A stretch of DNA of 20,568 bases from a virus: positions 5,338-25,905 of IMG/VR virus record IMGVR_UViG_3300030107_004381, one strand, 5' to 3'. Position 1 is the stretch's first letter; each line of letters starts with the position of its first letter. This document shows, piece by piece, positions 5,292 through 14,447 of this stretch. A program made the position numbers and the translations under genes. The notes under the pieces are model-generated. The model did not search any database, had not been told where the DNA came from, and worked only from the letters and a program-made list of their open reading frames with translations.

Positions 5292-5319
5292 ATTATAACA
5301 TACTTTTAGGATTTGTCAA
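5292..5319 (-). promoter_or_regulatory. strong sigma70-type (early-like) promoter ahead of primase-thyX-nrdJ
   Basis: On the minus strand TTGACA (5314-5319) and TATAAT (5292-5297) are both perfect consensus hexamers, separated by 16 bases. Transcription should start near 5285, about 30 bases before the primase ATG. The -35 hexamer contains the TGA stop of the upstream kinase gene (5316-5318). In T4-like phages such promoters drive early genes through unmodified host polymerase, so this probably starts an early nucleotide-metabolism unit. Seen directly; timing is inferred. Confidence 0.85.
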
Positions 5320-6005
5320 CCCCTTCTGTTGATTGCATGTTGATTTTTTATCCAAGCATTTGCTGCTCGTGAGGATGGTTTTTGTTTGATTAATTTTCCA
5401 ATTTCTACGAATACTTGAGTAAAAATATCTTCACCCGCAGAATTGTTATCTACTACAAGAAAGTTTCCTCTACCAAAATAAGATTGAAATTTACCTACAT
5501 TTTCTTGGACTGCATTCCACATTTTAGTTACTTCACTTTTCTCTAATTGTCTAGCCCTCATTTCATTTCTTTGTTGAGCAACTTCAAGTGATGTATTGAC
5601 AAATATCATATAAGTATCATAACCAATCTTTCTAAGAGCATCAGATGATTTCTTTATCTTATTATAATCTTTACCAGTTCCATCAATGAGAAGTCCAAGA
5701 CGGCCTTCAATGAACCCTGCTTGTTGTCTAGAGACAATCTTTTTGGCTCTATCTCTTATTGCTTGACCTTCATCTGAGTAGATATCCTTTGCTGTAGTTG
5801 CTTTACCAGCATCTTTCAACATTTTGGTAAACAATGGATCTGAATCAACTATCTTCAATCCATAAGGATTACTCTTCCCTACACCAGATGCAGAAGCGAC
5901 ATAAGATTTACCAGAGCCTGGGCCACCAGCAGTGAAGAATGCTTTGAATATGCCAGGGTCATTAACACCTTCATATAATTTTATGAAGTCTTGGAATGTT
6001 ATCAT
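5316..6005 (-). CDS. P-loop kinase (zeta-toxin/polynucleotide-kinase-like) with capsid-targeting-like N-terminus
   Basis: A 229-residue nucleoside/nucleotide-kinase-fold protein. Walker A is GGPGSGKS (residues 27-34), and GLLIDGTG (about 104-111) is a Walker-B-like strand. NTSLEVAQQRNEMRARQ looks like the Arg-rich lid. It resembles the P-loop kinases related to zeta toxin and polynucleotide kinase seen in many T4-like phages; the substrate cannot be read from sequence. The first residues, MITFQDFIKLYEG, are a looser version of the leader shared with six other proteins here and contain an LxE|G site like that cut by the T4 head protease. Start: TAATG overlap with the upstream gene after an excellent GAGGAGGAAG ribosome-binding site. 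Its stop codon lies inside the -35 box of the primase promoter. Confidence 0.85.
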   Translation of the reverse strand: MITFQDFIKLYEGVNDPGIFKAFFTAGGPGSGKSYVASASGVGKSNPYGLKIVDSDPLFTKMLKDAGKATTAKDIYSDEGQAIRDRAKKIVSRQQAGFIEGRLGLLIDGTGKDYNKIKKSSDALRKIGYDTYMIFVNTSLEVAQQRNEMRARQLEKSEVTKMWNAVQENVGKFQSYFGRGNFLVVDNNSAGEDIFTQVFVEIGKLIKQKPSSRAANAWIKNQHAINRRG

Positions 6006-6346
6006 TACGCCTTCCTCCTCGCTTTAGCAGCTTTGACAATAGCGATCAATTCAGTATCCATTGGTTTATTTATTGCTATCTCATATTCTCTCTTAAATTG
6101 TGCATCAGCCATTCGTTTATCTTTCATCCTTAATTGTAGTTCTTTGCGTCCAGTAACAGGATGTTGTGGAGAACGTACCGCTCGTGTATGATAAAAACTT
6201 GATGGATTCATAAGATAATCATTAAATTTATATACATCATCAAACCATGCACCCCCTGTATACTCAGGATATTTTTCATAATAAGCTGGGGATACATCCT
6301 TTTTGAAACCCGATGATTCAGTTAGATGTTCTTGAAAAGTTTTCAT
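6005..6346 (-). CDS. unknown small phage protein with capsid-targeting-like leader
   Basis: A 113-residue basic protein with no family I recognise. It begins MKTFQEHLTESSGFKKD; the first ten residues differ from the T4 internal-protein leader MKTYQEFIAE at only a few positions and end in LTE|S, a plausible prohead-protease site. The remainder has an aromatic-rich part (PAYYEKYPEYTGGAWFDD) and a Lys/Arg-rich C-terminus ending AKARRKA, as expected of a DNA-associated internal protein. It overlaps its upstream neighbour by ATGA and its downstream neighbour by TAATG, and an AAAGGAAAG ribosome-binding site precedes the ATG. It therefore belongs to a tightly coupled operon with the ATP-grasp ligase and the kinase. 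Confidence 0.8.
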   Translation of the reverse strand: MKTFQEHLTESSGFKKDVSPAYYEKYPEYTGGAWFDDVYKFNDYLMNPSSFYHTRAVRSPQHPVTGRKELQLRMKDKRMADAQFKREYEIAINKPMDTELIAIVKAAKARRKA

Positions 6347-6666
6347 TTGTTTCTTTCCTTTGTTATTTTTTTCATCTTTTCTATGTACTTCCTGTACACG
6401 TTGGCAGGGCCAGTTTTACCCATAACTCTTGCTCGTTGTTCCATCGCTATTGCAGCTTGTATTTTGTGTGCATGAGTTTTCCCTGAGTTTTCTATCTTTT
6501 TAACAGACTTTTCAGCATCTTCTGTAGTTGCAAACTTGAGTCCATGTATCGTACCTTTTGGATTCTCATCCGTATAAAGGTCTGAGTGTTTGTCACTCCC
6601 AGCTGGTTGACCTTTCTTTCTTGGTATTCTGGGCCCTTCTTCTAAATGTTGTTTAAAGGATTTCAT
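6343..6666 (-). CDS. conserved basic phage protein with capsid-targeting-like leader
   Basis: A 107-residue Lys/Arg-rich protein. After the leader MKSFKQHLEE|G comes a segment with features I recall from conserved proteins of phages and large viruses: HSDLYTDENPKGTIHGLKF, then HAHKIQAAIAMEQRARVMGK and a C-terminal YRKYIEKMKK helix. No function is known to me for that family. The strongly positive charge would suit contact with DNA inside a capsid. It overlaps the ATP-grasp gene upstream and the next gene downstream by ATGA, so all are translated in a chain. The leader ends in LEE, compatible with the [LI]xE cleavage rule of T4-type prohead protease. Confidence 0.8.
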   Translation of the reverse strand: MKSFKQHLEEGPRIPRKKGQPAGSDKHSDLYTDENPKGTIHGLKFATTEDAEKSVKKIENSGKTHAHKIQAAIAMEQRARVMGKTGPANVYRKYIEKMKKITKERNK

Positions 6667-8404: not shown

Positions 8405-9103
8405 TCATTTCCAGTTTTCCTTTACCCATGTGTCCTTTACTTCATGTGGTTTTGGTGTTCCATGAAAAACTACTATTTTTGAATTCATATCATATCCACA
8501 AGTATAACTTTGTAGCCAATCAGAAGGATAATATACTATATCCACATTGTGTTCTTTTAATTGATTTGTAGTCCACTCTTGATCTCCTCTATAAACTACA
8601 GGAGGAAAAGAGTTTAAATCGTGATATAAATTTTTCTTTCCATTTAATGTTTTATCAAAATATTCTTCTGCAGTAAATCTAGTTCTCAATGCTTCAAACC
8701 AGTTATCAATGATATAAGAGTGTTCACCTGCATTAAATCTCATACATGATGCGTTTATACAATCAATCTCCCAATCCTTGATACCAACAAACTCGGCATC
8801 TGGTTCAAATAAAAATAAATCATCTATTGAATTATTAATCACCACATCTAAATCAAGAAAAAGAATTTGACCAGTTATATCATGTAACTCTTTTTCAAAT
8901 AACTCAAACTTTGTATAACTATCTTTTAATTCTTTCCTTAATAGTGGTTTAGTTTCAATCTCTTCATTTAATCCAGTTGGATCTTCTGTTAAACATACAA
9001 ACCGATGCGGTAAAGTTAAGTGTCTTTCAACCATACTGTATAGTTTGTTTACATAACCAGCAGAGAATTTAGTTCCCCACTTTACACATAATATATTTTT
9101 CAT
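8405..9103 (-). CDS. glycosyltransferase, GT8-like
   Basis: A 232-residue protein with a nucleotide-sugar glycosyltransferase fold. It has an N-terminal beta strand (ILCVKWGTKFSAGYVNKLYSM), a metal-binding DxD in LFLDLDVVI (Asp84-Leu-Asp86), an acceptor-side MRFNAGEHSYI region and a C-terminal FHGTPKPHEV. The last is like the His-containing metal site near the end of GT8 enzymes. It would transfer a sugar from a nucleotide sugar; the acceptor (DNA base, surface glycan or protein) cannot be told. Its start overlaps the stop of the lipase gene by one base (TAATG), linking it to the envelope cassette and making a surface-glycan role plausible. After its stop comes a 73-base gap with a hairpin. 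Confidence 0.8.
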   Translation of the reverse strand: MKNILCVKWGTKFSAGYVNKLYSMVERHLTLPHRFVCLTEDPTGLNEEIETKPLLRKELKDSYTKFELFEKELHDITGQILFLDLDVVINNSIDDLFLFEPDAEFVGIKDWEIDCINASCMRFNAGEHSYIIDNWFEALRTRFTAEEYFDKTLNGKKNLYHDLNSFPPVVYRGDQEWTTNQLKEHNVDIVYYPSDWLQSYTCGYDMNSKIVVFHGTPKPHEVKDTWVKENWK

Positions 9104-9846
9104 TATAATTGTTTTTTTAATGTTTCTACATATTTTGAAATAGAATGATCTAAACCATCTGTTTCAGAAATTAAACCATTATCGTTATCTGGCCCCCAAT
9201 CCAAAGTCTGACTATCTACAAATACTCCTGTGTGAAGATAAGGATAAGTAGGACTAAAAGTGACAGGATCACTCCTGCGAACCACACGCCAATGAGTGGG
9301 TTGTCCACCAGACAAAACTTGAGAAGATACTTTTGGTGATCCGTAAGAGAAAACTTGAACATTGTAACCTCTTTTGTGTAACCACATTCCTACAATCTGA
9401 GCAATGGCTCCACCTAAACTGTGACCAGTAACGTGTACTGTATGTTCTAGTTGATAATATTTGTCAACCTCTTGAATAATTGTTGTAGATGCATCTCTAA
9501 ATCCCTTATGAAGATATATGTCTAATACATCATCTTTTATCATTCTTATGTCAATATCTGATAATACATTTGCTGTGTTATCAGTTCCCCTAATGACAAT
9601 AATCGTTATTCCATCACTAGTTTTTACTTCATAAGAAAGATTGTTTACCTCTGTTCCACCATTATCATAAATTGATTCACAGTATTCTGCGTGTTCAACA
9701 AGTATTTCTACTTTAATTGGTAGATTTGATTTATCACCACTTGTCGCACCCACTTCTTCAGCACTCTTCGCACATCCACTAAGTAGTAGAATCACTCCTA
9801 CTATTATGAGCTTCCAGTTCTTCTTTTTTCTTCCAAGCAGTTGCAC
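9103..9846 (-). CDS. class-3-type lipase lipoprotein
   Basis: A 247-residue alpha/beta-hydrolase. The nucleophile elbow is GHSLGG (Ser143), and the catalytic Asp (RSDPVTF, Asp193) and His (LDHSISKYV, His234) follow in the right order. RGTDN (residues 86-90) is the usual oxyanion strand of class 3 lipases. The N-terminus is GRKKKNWK, then a hydrophobic run ending LLSGC (Cys25), a good lipoprotein signal. The enzyme should be membrane-anchored and face the periplasm, able to attack phospholipid or other esters. The only reasonable start is a GTG at 9846, 68 bases inside the holin-like gene; no strong ribosome-binding site is visible, so translation may be coupled. A complete catalytic triad argues for activity. 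A role in lysis or envelope remodelling is inferred from neighbours. Confidence 0.85.
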   Translation of the reverse strand: MQLLGRKKKNWKLIIVGVILLLSGCAKSAEEVGATSGDKSNLPIKVEILVEHAEYCESIYDNGGTEVNNLSYEVKTSDGITIIVIRGTDNTANVLSDIDIRMIKDDVLDIYLHKGFRDASTTIIQEVDKYYQLEHTVHVTGHSLGGAIAQIVGMWLHKRGYNVQVFSYGSPKVSSQVLSGGQPTHWRVVRRSDPVTFSPTYPYLHTGVFVDSQTLDWGPDNDNGLISETDGLDHSISKYVETLKKQL

Positions 9847-10075
9847 CTAATATGGCTCCAAATGATAAGTGAAACATCGCACCTCCTTCTAGTGTAAGAG
9901 GCATCCATCTACTCGCATCACATACCAAACCTTTGGCAACCATCATGTTACAATAACTATCCATTTTTATATTCCAGACTACTGGCCCTATGAAGAAATC
10001 ACAGAGACAAATGAAAAGATAAACAAGTCCTGCCCAATCTCTCCAATGTCTGTTAATCGTTTTGTTTATACTCAT
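9779..10075 (-). CDS. small membrane protein, holin-like
   Basis: A 98-residue protein with two hydrophobic segments: WAGLVYLFICLCDFFIGPVV (about residues 14-33) and TLEGGAMFHLSFGAILGATAW (about 63-83). A charged C-terminal tail (KKKEELEAHN) follows. Size, topology and the LEGG..FHLSFGAILG segment resemble proteins annotated as phage holins, which open the inner membrane at lysis. The frame is open to 10144, but the ATG at 10075 overlaps the upstream TGA (ATGA), the junction used throughout this region, so I prefer it. No obvious Shine-Dalgarno, consistent with coupling to the PycTM-like gene. It overlaps the lipase gene by 68 bases. No endolysin is recognisable in the window. Confidence 0.6.
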   Translation of the reverse strand: MSINKTINRHWRDWAGLVYLFICLCDFFIGPVVWNIKMDSYCNMMVAKGLVCDASRWMPLTLEGGAMFHLSFGAILGATAWKKKEELEAHNSRSDSTT

Positions 10076-10650
10076 AAAATATTTTGTATTATAAAAACTG
10101 CAATTGCACCAGACATTCCCCAAAGAAAACTCATATAAGACCATTTGAGAAATTTGTATTTATTGAGAGCAAGAACTTTTCCTTGTCCGTAAATATCTCC
10201 AGCCATTGCATCATAAATTTTATCATCAGTCATTAAAGTATCTACATAATCTTCCTTATACTCTTCTATTGGAAGATGTGCAAAATGTCCAAAAAATAAA
10301 GGATTAAATAGTGGTGATTTTCTATCTATCTCCTGTGTACCTTTTATTTTTGGGTAATTCGTACTGGGTATAATTGCAAATATTGCAAATAATAAAGAGA
10401 AAAAACTACCAACTGCAAATGTTAATAATGGATATTTCATCACTTCATTATCTAAGTTTGCAATAGTTATCGAAAATACAATAGATGCAACAGTAATCAT
10501 AATGTTCGCCTTTGCATCTGCCATCAATCCTAATCTCATTTGATTACCATGATTGACTCGTAAGATGTTATCTACAGCAGTACGATTCTCTGGTACTTTA
10601 TCAAAAGGATTTATACCATTTCCTTTTGAGTATCTTGTAACGTGTGACAT
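10072..10650 (-). CDS. Pycsar-effector-family membrane protein (PycTM / DUF5706)
   Basis: A 192-residue membrane protein that I recognise as the DUF5706/PycTM family. MADAKANIMITVASIVFSI (residues 43-61) is the family's AD.KANI first helix. A second helix runs about 74-95. The cytosolic part NPLFFGHFAHLPIEEYKEDY (116-135) and DIYGQGKVLALNKYKFLKW (152-170) is very like family members, and a third helix covers about 172-190. In bacteria, Pycsar effectors of this family disrupt the membrane after sensing a cyclic pyrimidine nucleotide made during phage infection. Here it sits in a phage between an AapJ-like gene and a holin-like gene (ATGA overlap), with no cyclase in the window. An AAGGAAA ribosome-binding site supports the start. 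Role in the phage unknown. Confidence 0.82.
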   Translation of the reverse strand: MSHVTRYSKGNGINPFDKVPENRTAVDNILRVNHGNQMRLGLMADAKANIMITVASIVFSITIANLDNEVMKYPLLTFAVGSFFSLLFAIFAIIPSTNYPKIKGTQEIDRKSPLFNPLFFGHFAHLPIEEYKEDYVDTLMTDDKIYDAMAGDIYGQGKVLALNKYKFLKWSYMSFLWGMSGAIAVFIIQNIL

Positions 10651-10661
10651 AACATATTTCC

Positions 10662-11825
10662 TTATTTAAGAGGGGGTGCGTAAAGTAATCCTCCATGAAT
10701 GTATAATCGGTTCAATCCTCTGTTTAATCCTAATTTTTTCTTAATGTTGCGGTCAAATATTTCTTCGTAATTTCCTACTTGTTTGATTATATCATAAGAC
10801 CAGTTTTCAGTCAACCCTAACTTTGCACCAAGATGTGGATGATCTTTACCATTTTTTTCACCCATGAATCTTTGAACATTTGGGTCTTTATTTTCTATAA
10901 ATCTGTCAATATTTTTTGAGTTTATACCCATCTCTTCTGCAATAAAAAGAACATATATTGTCCATCTTACTATGTCTGACCATTTTTGGTCACCATATTT
11001 TACAACTGGCCCGAGTGGTTCTTTTGATATTATTTCTGGTAAAATTATATGTCTTTCTGGTGAATTAAATCCTAATCTATTAGATGCTAATCCAGATCTA
11101 TCAGTTCCATACATATCACAGTCACCTCTAAGATAAACATCTTTTGTTTTTTCATTGACCGAAACAGCAACTGGAATGTACTTTATTTCGTGAAGTTCCA
11201 TAAAGTCTGCGATATTTTTAGCAGCAGTACCAGAACCTTTGAAACATATTTTAGCACCATGCATCTGTTTAGCAGAAGAAACACCTAAAGATTTTTTTGT
11301 AATAAATCCTTGACCATCATAATAGGTTGTTGGTAAAAATTCAAATTTCTTTAGTACATTTCTTGTAAATGTATATGTGGTTGCTGCAGATAACATATCA
11401 ATAGTACCATCTTTTAAATATGCAAATCTAGTGATACCATTTACTATTTCGTATTCTACAGCATCTGAATCTCCAAATACTGCTGCAGCCACTGCTCTAC
11501 ACATATCAACATCAAATCCCTTCCATCCTTCATCTTCATTATCATATGTCTCTTCAGAAAAGCCAGGAAATTCATCATTAGTTCCACAAATAATATAACC
11601 TCTTTCCATTACTCTATCAAATGTAGATCCGTATGTTGGATTATATTCTTCTAATTCTCCTGTATCTCTCAGTTTTATAGCTTTAAGTTTTTCTAACTGC
11701 TGTACCAATTTGTTAATGTTATCGTCAATGCGTTCACTAGGTGGACTTCCTTCAACTGAACTGTTAATAACCATTACCCAAAATAACCACACTAAACAAA
11801 CGACAACCTTACCACTCATAATCAT
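10662..11825 (-). CDS. aapJ: AapJ/YhdW-like general L-amino-acid ABC transporter substrate-binding protein
   Basis: A 387-residue periplasmic binding protein. A signal peptide (hydrophobic core about residues 7-21, cut probably near SVEG|SPP) is followed by a short coiled-coil-like stretch (about 36-60). The binding domain begins STFDRVMERGYIICGTN. Many segments match AapJ closely: GFDVDMCRAVAAAVFGD, YYDGQGF, the ILPEIISKEPLGPVV motif, GNYEEIFDRN and the terminal GGLLYAPPLK. AapJ binds a broad range of L-amino acids for the AapQMP transporter; no permease or ATPase gene is in the window, so it would have to use host AapQMP or act as a sink. The start overlaps the cytochrome-like gene (ATGA). 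The helical spacer after the signal peptide is unusual for the family. A clear host-derived gene. Confidence 0.9.
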   Translation of the reverse strand: MIMSGKVVVCLVWLFWVMVINSSVEGSPPSERIDDNINKLVQQLEKLKAIKLRDTGELEEYNPTYGSTFDRVMERGYIICGTNDEFPGFSEETYDNEDEGWKGFDVDMCRAVAAAVFGDSDAVEYEIVNGITRFAYLKDGTIDMLSAATTYTFTRNVLKKFEFLPTTYYDGQGFITKKSLGVSSAKQMHGAKICFKGSGTAAKNIADFMELHEIKYIPVAVSVNEKTKDVYLRGDCDMYGTDRSGLASNRLGFNSPERHIILPEIISKEPLGPVVKYGDQKWSDIVRWTIYVLFIAEEMGINSKNIDRFIENKDPNVQRFMGEKNGKDHPHLGAKLGLTENWSYDIIKQVGNYEEIFDRNIKKKLGLNRGLNRLYIHGGLLYAPPLK

Positions 11826-12292
11826 TTTAAAGTCCTGTAAACTTCCATAAGTTCATCATCTGAAATGGGAGAAGTCATTGTATAATATCTTTGATGACCT
11901 ACTCTCATGAATGCTTTTATGTCAGAAAAACTTGGATACGTTGATTGTAGGTTATGAAGTAGGTAGTCAGGGTCTAAGTGACAAGTTGCACATTGATTAT
12001 CTCTTGCAAAAACTCTTGTTGATATTTTAAATCTTTCACTTTGAACTAATACTGCTGAAAGGTCTTTTTCCATCCATGTTATTCTTTCATCCATATCTGG
12101 AATAACTAGAAAAATTAAATATATAAGAAGTCCGATAATAACATAGATGAAAGATTTACTCGCAACTATTTGGTCTTTAGCTGCAAGTTCCATTTGTTGA
12201 ACTTCTTCTACTTTTTTGTCTATTTCCTCAATGTCATGTTGTAGTATTTTTGTGTCTTTTTCGTTTCCTGTATTTTTATCCTGTTGTGCCAT
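11822..12292 (-). CDS. membrane-anchored c-type-cytochrome-like protein (single CxxCH)
   Basis: A 156-residue protein in three parts. A soluble acidic coiled coil (about 13-40) comes first, then one strongly hydrophobic helix (about 47-64). The C-terminal domain carries CATCH (101-105), the CxxCH signature for covalent heme attachment, and would face the periplasm where c-type heme is inserted. Downstream, Met129 or Met139 (YYTMTSPISDDELMEVYRTL) could be the sixth iron ligand; the last segment resembles the closing helix of cytochrome c. This would need the host Ccm system. Single CxxCH motifs can arise by chance, but the layout, with a membrane anchor and helix ending, makes heme binding plausible. 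The start has an AAAGGAAAA ribosome-binding site and the stop overlaps the AapJ-like start. Confidence 0.7.
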   Translation of the reverse strand: MAQQDKNTGNEKDTKILQHDIEEIDKKVEEVQQMELAAKDQIVASKSFIYVIIGLLIYLIFLVIPDMDERITWMEKDLSAVLVQSERFKISTRVFARDNQCATCHLDPDYLLHNLQSTYPSFSDIKAFMRVGHQRYYTMTSPISDDELMEVYRTLK

Positions 12293-12295
12293 AAT

Positions 12296-12643
12296 CTATT
12301 TTCCTTTTCCAACTTGATTCAACTTTTTAGTTATTTGTTGTTGAAACCATTTCAATACAATGGGAATACTTACATTAGAAGTAAGTCCAAATAAAAAACC
12401 GACAGGATATCGGTAAGAAGCATAAGGTGCTAATTGTGGAATATTTGTAAATACTATTGAAATTAATAAATATCCTGTTAAAGACATTCCCATATTGATT
12501 AAAAGATCAAATCCTATCAACCAACCATGCCCTTCATATTTTTCTTTATTGTCTGTTCTGTAATTAAATAGAAAAAGCCAAAATGATGCAAATAATATAA
12601 TTGCCATCATTATCAGCTCATCTATTCCAAAAAGTTGATCCAT
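12296..12643 (-). CDS. three-helix membrane protein, possible holin
   Basis: A 115-residue very hydrophobic protein with predicted membrane helices at about residues 9-27, 42-66 and 80-98. Its C-terminus is basic and Gln/Lys-rich (KWFQQQITKKLNQVGKGK). This size, helix number and charged tail fit a class I holin, but there is no sequence feature specific to one, and two other small membrane proteins in this window also could be. It starts 22 bases after the HAD-like gene and ends 3 bases before the cytochrome-like gene, so it opens the envelope cassette. The ribosome-binding site is weak (AATAAAG). Confidence 0.7.
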   Translation of the reverse strand: MDQLFGIDELIMMAIILFASFWLFLFNYRTDNKEKYEGHGWLIGFDLLINMGMSLTGYLLISIVFTNIPQLAPYASYRYPVGFLFGLTSNVSIPIVLKWFQQQITKKLNQVGKGK

Positions 12644-12665: not shown

Positions 12666-13178
12666 TTAGGGGAATCCAATCTTCTTCAAATCATTTATGG
12701 TAGAAGCGGCATCAGTATGAAGTATTCCTATACCTCCGGCAGATTCCCATTCTTTGATATTACCTATGTGGTCATCTATCAGTATATTGGGTCTTTTGTC
12801 TCTACCATCCATAGCAAAGTTTTTCTTGTTTTTTCTTAGTACTATTTTCATTCTACTTGATGGAAGTTTGAAATTTTTCATCATCCATCTTGTTTTATCT
12901 TTCCAAGCTCTTTTGGCAATTGGGCCTCTTGAATCTCTTGGAACTGCTGTAAGCATAAATGGTTGGAATTGTTTTATATATCCCCACAAAACATCAGCAT
13001 CTGGCATCTTTGGGAGTTGTAAAAATAAATCTACTGGTAAATCTTGCCAGAGTTCATCTTTAAATTTTGTTCCAAGATAATTAGAGGTAAATTTTACAAA
13101 ATCAGCAACCACACCATCCATATCACAATAGATTTGTGGGTTATCAAATTCTATTATATGTTGCTGAAAACTTTTCAT
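12666..13178 (-). CDS. HAD-family 5'(3')-deoxyribonucleotidase-like phosphatase with capsid-targeting-like leader
   Basis: A 170-residue HAD hydrolase. Motif I is YCDMDGVVADF (nucleophile and acid Asp residues about 19 and 21), motif II lies in FMLTAVPR, and motif III/IV is NILIDDHIGNIKEWESAGG. This arrangement is that of the NT5C-type 5'(3')-deoxyribonucleotidases, which remove phosphate from deoxynucleoside monophosphates; the precise substrate is inferred. The N-terminus, MKSFQQHIIE|F, is the shared leader of this window and ends in IIE, compatible with prohead-protease cleavage. The ATG abuts the stop of a 29-residue membrane ORF (TAAATG). A phosphatase would fit either nucleotide salvage or the T4-like idea of an injected enzyme. 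Confidence 0.85.
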   Translation of the reverse strand: MKSFQQHIIEFDNPQIYCDMDGVVADFVKFTSNYLGTKFKDELWQDLPVDLFLQLPKMPDADVLWGYIKQFQPFMLTAVPRDSRGPIAKRAWKDKTRWMMKNFKLPSSRMKIVLRKNKKNFAMDGRDKRPNILIDDHIGNIKEWESAGGIGILHTDAASTINDLKKIGFP

Positions 13179-13268
13179 TTAAAGTATTCCTATATACCAA
13201 AAAAAATAACCAAGTGCAGCAAAAAATATAAGAAAAACAATTGCAAAATCTGTAGGACTAAGGTTCAT
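13179..13268 (-). CDS. 29-residue single-helix membrane peptide
   Basis: A short ORF that fills the gap between two larger genes. It begins at an ATG at 13268 that overlaps the upstream TGA (ATGA) and stops at 13179, directly against the next ATG (TAAATG). The product begins MNLSPTDFAIVFLIFFAALG and ends YFFWYIGIL: almost one hydrophobic helix (about residues 7-28). Perfect fit into the gap and the coupling junctions on both sides argue that it is translated. It could be a small regulator of a membrane complex or lysis protein; there is no family to compare it with. Confidence 0.65.
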   Translation of the reverse strand: MNLSPTDFAIVFLIFFAALGYFFWYIGIL

Positions 13269-13531
13269 TTGTCGTCTATCTCGTAATTAAAAGCTTTAGT
13301 ATTGCTTTTTGCTGGTTTTGCCATAGGTCTTAACCAAACCTTGATTACCATTTCACCACTTGGAGTTGGAAATGTAAAAGTTGGTTTACCTTTTTTCATC
13401 TTGTAATCATCGGTTGCATTTACAGGAAATTTAGCTAACTTTCTTTTTTTTATCTCATCAGAAACATATTTGTCTCTATCATCAGCTGTAAAAAATCTTA
13501 CTTCATTAATATGGTCTTTAAATGTTTTCAT
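13265..13531 (-). CDS. unknown small protein with capsid-targeting-like leader
   Basis: An 88-residue basic protein with no recognised family. The leader MKTFKDHINE|V is followed by a Lys-rich segment, then KGKPTFTFPTPSGEMVIKVW, which looks like a beta hairpin. It overlaps the gene before it by one base (TAATG) and the 29-residue membrane peptide after it by ATGA. Its small size, positive charge and leader resemble T4 internal head proteins, but beyond the leader there is no similarity I can see. Confidence 0.75.
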   Translation of the reverse strand: MKTFKDHINEVRFFTADDRDKYVSDEIKKRKLAKFPVNATDDYKMKKGKPTFTFPTPSGEMVIKVWLRPMAKPAKSNTKAFNYEIDDK

Positions 13532-14043
13532 TAGTATTTTACATCTTTTAGTGATTTTATTCTTTTGATTTTACTTCCAGGCCCTTGACCTATAAAATCT
13601 CCTGTTAAGTCATAAGTAGGTGGCCATGCATTCCATCCTTTTTCACCTTTTTCTATTTGTTTCTTTTGAAATGCTACATTTCCAAATTTCTTAATATAAT
13701 CAAGGGCATCTTTTTTATCATAAGTTACTAATCTTGCTGTTCCTGTCCAACCCATAACTGTTTGACCATCTGTGTTTACTCTATCATGTCCAACATGGAA
13801 AGAATTTTTAGGATATAAGTCATCACCCCTTGTATCTTTAGTAATGGTCATGTATATGGCAGTACCTTCTTCTTTTCCTTTTGGTTGTCCACTAGCAGCT
13901 TTACCTTGTTCTGAATCATCCATATACAGAAACTTTGAAAAAACTATATTTAGTTTTCCATGTTTACCACTATTACTTAAATCTTTGGAAGAATATTTGG
14001 TAATGTCTTTTTCTTCATTGATATGTTGTTTAAATGATTTCAT
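13531..14043 (-). CDS. unknown protein with capsid-targeting-like leader
   Basis: A 170-residue protein. The frame is open to an ATG at 14058, but the ATG at 14043 overlaps the stop of the upstream coiled-coil gene (ATGA) and gives the leader MKSFKQHINE|E, so I start there. The body has a beta-rich look (GKLNIVFSKFLYMDD, GTAIYMTITKD, GWTGTARLVTYDKKDALDY) and a basic C-terminus. I do not recognise it. It is followed at TAATG by another leader-bearing protein, so the two are made together. Confidence 0.75.
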   Translation of the reverse strand: MKSFKQHINEEKDITKYSSKDLSNSGKHGKLNIVFSKFLYMDDSEQGKAASGQPKGKEEGTAIYMTITKDTRGDDLYPKNSFHVGHDRVNTDGQTVMGWTGTARLVTYDKKDALDYIKKFGNVAFQKKQIEKGEKGWNAWPPTYDLTGDFIGQGPGSKIKRIKSLKDVKY

Positions 14044-14447
14044 GTTTTTGTCATCCAACTAATGATTGATGCAGCTATAGCTCCAATAGCTCCAGCGACA
14101 AGAGAAGTCATACCCATAAGGCGTGACTTCCATTGTTCTACAGCACGAACTCTTTCTTCCATTTTTGTTATGTGGTCTATTAATCTTCTTTCAGAATTAC
14201 CAATTTCATCACGAACAGTTCCAACTCGCGAATGTAAGAGTTTAAGTTCAGAACGAATCTCTTCATCTGCCTTTCGGTGTTCTTCTTGGCGAGAATTTAG
14301 TGATTTAATCTCTACTGTAAGTTCTACTATTCTATCTGCTGTTGTGTCTAATTTGGTTAGAAGAGCATCAATCTGTCTTCCTCTGACCTCAACCTCTTGT
14401 TGTAAAAGTCCAACTTGAAGTCTGACATCCTGTAACTCTTCTGGCAT
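14040..14447 (-). CDS. coiled-coil protein with C-terminal membrane anchor (XhlA-like)
   Basis: A 135-residue protein that is almost wholly heptad-patterned coiled coil (about residues 3-108, rich in Leu, Glu, Arg). It ends in one hydrophobic helix (GMTSLVAGAIGAIAASII, about 111-128) and a short SWMTKT tail. The design resembles XhlA-type holin-associated proteins or other tail-anchored phage proteins; the resemblance is in layout, not sequence. An AAGGT ribosome-binding site precedes the ATG. It ends inside the first codon of the next gene (ATGA). Possible roles are lysis timing or tethering a complex to the inner membrane. Confidence 0.7.
   Translation of the reverse strand: MPEELQDVRLQVGLLQQEVEVRGRQIDALLTKLDTTADRIVELTVEIKSLNSRQEEHRKADEEIRSELKLLHSRVGTVRDEIGNSERRLIDHITKMEERVRAVEQWKSRLMGMTSLVAGAIGAIAASIISWMTKT

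Follow-up and report, generated by a model that had tools for sequence, protein, structure and literature searches.

A conserved viral membrane protein with a putative haem c motif, and its gene neighbours, in T4-like ocean phages

Phage genes that touch on electron transport are known mainly from photosynthesis and, recently, from sulfur oxidation. The locus described here raises the question of whether a viral membrane protein with a single CxxCH motif carries covalent haem and, if so, what such a protein would do in an infected cell. The window that we analysed is a stretch of 20,568 nucleotides (positions 5,338 to 25,905 of IMG/VR record IMGVR_UViG_3300030107_004381); the whole virus record containing it is 25.9 kb in length. 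An earlier note on this DNA had reported an open reading frame in which the sequence CATCH follows one membrane helix, and this frame is indeed present on the minus strand. We refer to its product as CYT, to the products of the genes upstream and downstream as HOL and SBP, respectively, and to the three together as the trio. The features are as follows.

12296–12643, minus strand: HOL, 115 amino acids, about three transmembrane (TM) helices and a basic C-terminus; immediately upstream of CYT
11822–12292, minus strand: CYT open reading frame, 156 amino acids, ATG start; predicted bitopic membrane protein with one CxxCH (haem c type) motif
12098–12151, minus strand: predicted membrane helix of CYT, residues about 48–65, from hydrophobicity, the AlphaFold2 helix and an N-in charge bias
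11978–11992, minus strand: CATCH, putative haem-attachment motif, residues 101–105, read from the sequence; C101, C104 and H105 invariant in 135 alignment rows
11906–11908, minus strand: Met129, candidate distal haem ligand, invariant (135 of 135 rows)
11894–11896, minus strand: His133, candidate distal haem ligand, invariant (135 of 135 rows)
11876–11878, minus strand: Met139, position of the Met ligand of class I cytochrome c, variable in the 135-row alignment
10662–11825, minus strand: SBP, exported AapJ-like amino-acid-binding protein by its family matches; its start overlaps the CYT stop (ATGA)

The order of elements in CYT is a predicted cytoplasmic N-terminus, the single membrane helix, a helical stalk and the single CATCH. 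The mean net charge is −0.3 on the N-terminal side of the membrane helix and −2.4 on the C-terminal side, and the mean counts of Lys and Arg residues flanking the helix are 2.6 and 2.1, respectively. This asymmetry favours only modestly an N-in/C-out arrangement, which would place the motif in the periplasm as proposed earlier.

Homologues of CYT were collected from IMG/VR together with four GTDB contigs, giving 134 distinct full-length sequences. The earlier note had named loss of the motif in related phages as the result that would count against it. The CxxCH is kept in all 134 sequences, at pairwise identities down to 47%. Synonymous sites are strongly diverged (pS of about 0.65), and at the motif itself the Cys codons alternate between TGT and TGC and the His codons between CAT and CAC. 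The pN/pS values are 0.19 for the domain with the haem box, 0.18 for the stalk, 0.31 for the membrane helix and 0.53 for the cytoplasmic tail. A DNA-level search for CxxCH codons gave matches near background and is given no weight here. In a 167 kb relative the motif occurs in one of 193 predicted open reading frames, namely CYT, but this is weak evidence because 0.37 such frames are expected by chance when the proteins of that genome are shuffled. Judged from these alignments, the CxxCH is more than a chance occurrence and is under selection, with the weight resting on its conservation.

The profile searches and structure predictions that had been suggested as checks gave a mixed outcome. The Pfam SoxA-TsdA domain (PF21342) was matched weakly but repeatedly, in 63 of 66 CYT members with a best E value of 7e-4; other weak Pfam matches were to Cytochrome_CBB3 (7/66) and Cytochrom_C550 (4/66). 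The window protein itself, however, scores 13.5 bits against SoxA-TsdA over residues 97–124, which is below the curated cut-off of 27. Like CYT, the SoxA/TsdA domain has a brief helical stretch behind its CxxCH; unlike it, CYT has a predicted single membrane anchor and no Sox or Tsd partner genes were seen. Neither by sequence nor by profile did CYT match any PDB entry significantly, and no family was found for it in PHROGs or NCBIfam. AlphaFold2, run with 66 homologues on full-length CYT, returned a model with a low mean pLDDT of 63.7 and block means of 73–88 over residues 41–90. In this model a helix runs unbroken from residue 12 to residue 98 and is followed by helices at 108–118, 122–137 and 145–155. 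The mean pLDDT for the domain alone was 51.3. Foldseek searches with these low-confidence full-length and domain-only models gave no match and no cytochrome.

If haem were not bound, C101 and C104 could bind a metal such as zinc together with His, or the two cysteines could form a structural disulfide. A Cys2His2 site could arise from the CxxC plus the two invariant His residues, H105 and H133, and both the absence of a fold match for CYT and its weakly supported topology are compatible with such an arrangement. Nevertheless, haem c sites typically have a His immediately behind their second Cys, as is invariably the case here, and the commonest weak profile match of CYT is to a cytochrome c domain. 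An exported CxxCH is, moreover, a substrate of bacterial haem c synthase by motif alone: for the bacterial synthase CcsBA both thiols of the motif and its His suffice and helix 1 is dispensable (PMC8112865). We regard a non-haem site as improbable. In our view, covalent haem on CYT, as the earlier note had claimed, is the most economical reading, since the CxxCH is invariant, the motif is predicted to lie outside the membrane and the profiles lean towards cytochrome c.

The identity of a second haem ligand is a separate matter. Residues C101, C104, H105, M129 and H133 are part of a set of 25 invariant positions within residues 66–156, whereas His113 is variable, being Ser in ten of the 135 rows. 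At position 139 the residue is Met in 94 rows, Ala in 17, Leu in 12, Asn in eight and Val, Ser, Thr or Arg in the other four. Should CYT bind haem, M129 and H133 are the likelier candidates for the distal ligand, because both are invariant while M139 is lost in 41 of the 135 sequences. For the same reason CYT is not classed as a class I cytochrome, and a plain class I identity appears doubtful. The protein may still work in the manner of a cytochrome even though the class I Met is variable.

HOL is the constant partner of CYT. CYT lies directly downstream of HOL in 294 of 294 loci with room on the contig, and HOL directly upstream of CYT in 295 of 295 (in both counts the loci are partly redundant). 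The two genes are mostly separated by 3–8 nucleotides or overlap by one nucleotide. HOL has no conserved His, but its predicted membrane helices contain the invariant polar residues D46, N50, T56, T88, S89, N90 and S92, which suggest that it has a function of its own. Comparison of 33 HOL members with Pfam and PHROGs matched neither a holin family nor any other known family.

SBP shows a looser linkage. The coupling of CYT to an amino-acid-binding protein that had been claimed is borne out: the CYT stop and the SBP start share an ATGA, and this pattern with SBP as the next gene recurs in 97 of 124 distinct homologues. Where the contig is long enough (282 loci, again partly redundant), SBP lies close downstream of CYT in 267. 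Exceptions include relatives in which other genes lie between the two and one (L007) in which an IscU-like gene follows CYT. This occasional displacement or replacement implies that SBP may sit outside a HOL–CYT complex. The protein matches Pfam SBP_bac_3 with an E value of 5e-12 (46.1 bits; cut-off 26.4), TIGR01096 with an E value of 3e-37 and the AapJ-type protein in PDB entry 4z9n with an E value of 4e-76, residues 65–386 of SBP being aligned in the last case. By these alignments SBP is a full-length match to the family 3 binding proteins. It differs from AapJ-type proteins in sharing one operon with HOL and CYT, and no transporter genes adjoin it in the window.

By analogy, the nearest functional model for CYT would be the membrane-anchored cytochrome cy, which resembles its predicted outline in having an N-terminal membrane anchor and a periplasmic mono-haem c-type domain. 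CYT might be an electron carrier, that is, a tethered cytochrome c feeding a host terminal oxidase or reductase, comparable to cyanophage plastocyanin, with SBP supplying amino acids. The c-type motif, the weak SoxA-TsdA, Cytochrome_CBB3 and C550 matches, the full-length match of the downstream SBP to an amino-acid-binding protein and the presence of metabolic genes in relatives (isocitrate lyase-like in L084 and PEPCK-like in L280) would all suit a carrier, and cytochrome cy is a known one (PMC7876108). However, we found no sequence match between cytochrome cy and CYT, whose domain is short (52 residues from the region of the second motif Cys to the end). Furthermore, the class I Met position is gone in many sequences, the predicted stalk is a continuous helix with no flexible linker and an obligatory three-helix partner without a conserved His is ill-suited to a simple shuttle. 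We consider the carrier reading unlikely. A sensor or regulator role fits CYT somewhat better than that of a free carrier because of the continuous helix, the obligatory HOL partner and the unfixed Met position.

The earlier note stated that phage redox proteins are usually photosynthetic; non-photosynthetic phage redox genes, including the sulfur-oxidation genes soxC and soxD, have already been reported (PMC8190135). Phage soxD resembles CYT in being a c-type cytochrome-related gene in phages of non-photosynthetic hosts. It is part of an established host pathway, and in the phage SoxD proteins reported in PMC8190135 one haem motif or both are missing, whereas for CYT no host counterpart is known and the motif is invariant. 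A search of the open-access literature for phage-encoded cytochrome c yielded nothing beyond a metagenome report on viral cytochrome oxidase from the Indian Ocean.

CYT is carried by a marine myovirus that is T4-like and uncultured. Three of seven long trio-carrying records encode the T4 capsid protein Gp23, with E values of 6e-136 to 4e-143, and Gp23 of the trio contigs is nearest to that of phages of Methylophilales, Prochlorococcus and Pelagibacter. Among 50,697 cultured-phage records tblastn found no homologue of CYT at E 0.01, and tblastn of a divergent CYT domain and of HOL against cultured phages gave chance-level matches only. A pattern scan of 84,980 GTDB genomes returned four CYT loci (L082–L085), in genomes titled Saprospiraceae, Flavobacteriales, Chloroflexi and Acidimicrobiaceae. 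These contigs carry phage genes; L084 reads as a phage-like contig from its open reading frames, and L083 has the same phage gene order. A cellular origin of CYT was considered and set aside, the four contigs being probably mis-binned phage. When about 300 genomes from each of two phyla other than the Proteobacteria (the likely host phylum) were searched with profiles, the same contigs alone were returned. Ferrochelatase was looked for in 17 trio-carrying phage records and was absent from all of them.

The genomic settings of the trio bear on the suggestion that CYT is a haem-bound lysis timer, in which HOL would be a holin of class I type and CYT would couple respiration to its triggering. 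The size of HOL (about 115 amino acids), its three predicted helices and basic tail and its strict pairing with CYT are what such a holin might show. In L118 the trio has a late-gene setting in the gp16–gp17 gap, between the small and large terminase genes, with sheath and tube genes around it and genes for a lipase lipoprotein and a coiled-coil membrane protein nearby. The same gap in cultured relatives holds metabolic genes in HTVC008M (phytanoyl-CoA dioxygenase and tryptophan halogenase) and an F5/8 protein gene in Melnitz, and this variation marks it as a site of variable cargo and is no proof of a role in lysis. Elsewhere the trio adjoins a PEPCK-like gene (L280) or, in the window, nucleotidase and Pycsar-like genes; no evident lysis gene adjoins it in L280 or L286. 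These differing settings argue against a fixed lysis cassette, an idea that we have downgraded, and the movement of the trio through unrelated surroundings weakens the lysis-timer proposal. The lack of a match to any holin family and the presence of an amino-acid-binding protein, unexpected within a lysis cassette, also count against it, and we judge a role in lysis timing to be improbable.

Read by eye, other genes in trio-carrying relatives appear to encode isocitrate lyase (L084, 434–1711), PEP carboxykinase (L280, 15–1244) and an IscU-like Fe–S scaffold protein (L007, 2511–2897).

The reading that we tentatively prefer, with a little under even confidence, is that CYT is the inner-membrane mono-haem c subunit of a two-protein complex with HOL and that SBP comes from the same operon. 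Host translocation would put the C-terminus of CYT in the periplasm, where the host Ccm or Ccs machinery (assumed) would attach haem to C101 and C104, with H105 as the proximal ligand and M129 or H133 as the distal ligand. A fairly rigid stalk for the haem would be formed by the periplasmic helix, which runs on from the membrane helix and the cytoplasmic coiled coil. We speculate that the haem could signal to HOL, or pass on to it, the redox or gas state of the respiratory chain of the host; SBP would meanwhile support amino-acid uptake, so that membrane function would be suited to late infection. Points against this reading are the low AlphaFold2 confidence, the Foldseek searches that returned no cytochrome, the absence of ferrochelatase from the trio-carrying records and the fact that neither CYT nor HOL has a characterised homologue. 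Haem binding, the topology of CYT and formation of the HOL–CYT complex are what we infer; what the haem would sense and what HOL would do are speculative. On a broader and doubtful proposal, HOL, CYT and SBP would constitute a new kind of phage membrane system at work in infected non-photosynthetic ocean bacteria. A viral c-type haem protein would sense the state of the host respiratory chain or relay it to a membrane channel or a regulator, also viral, and uptake, energy state or lysis time would be set in this way.

CYT represents a large and strictly conserved family of membrane proteins with a haem motif that T4-like viruses of the ocean encode; no member turned up in cultured phages or in the family libraries that we searched. 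If the preferred reading is true, viruses of heterotrophic bacteria put their own haem proteins into the host envelope, and the linkage to HOL and SBP makes a viral haem effect on respiration, nutrient uptake or lysis time testable.

Several further observations concern the neighbourhood of the trio. A membrane protein encoded at 10072–10650 of the window matches Pfam PycTM (E value 1e-19), a family for the membrane-spanning portion of Pycsar defence effectors; its homologues come after the trio in many relatives, and none was found in cultured phages. At 9103–9846 the window encodes a lipoprotein-like class 3 lipase (Pfam Lipase_3, E value 2e-18), which adjoins a small membrane protein at 9779–10144. 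The 167 kb relative (L290) encodes a second periplasmic binding protein, of BMP type by eye, at 1687–2772. Finally, many proteins encoded in the window (5316–6666 and 12666–14058) and in L290 and L296 start near-identically, with stretches such as MKSFKQHLxE or MKQYKQFLAEA. We take these starts to resemble the sequence that directs internal proteins of T4 to the capsid, and the proteins that bear them, including a deoxyribonucleotidase-like protein and a P-loop protein, may be packaged in the head.
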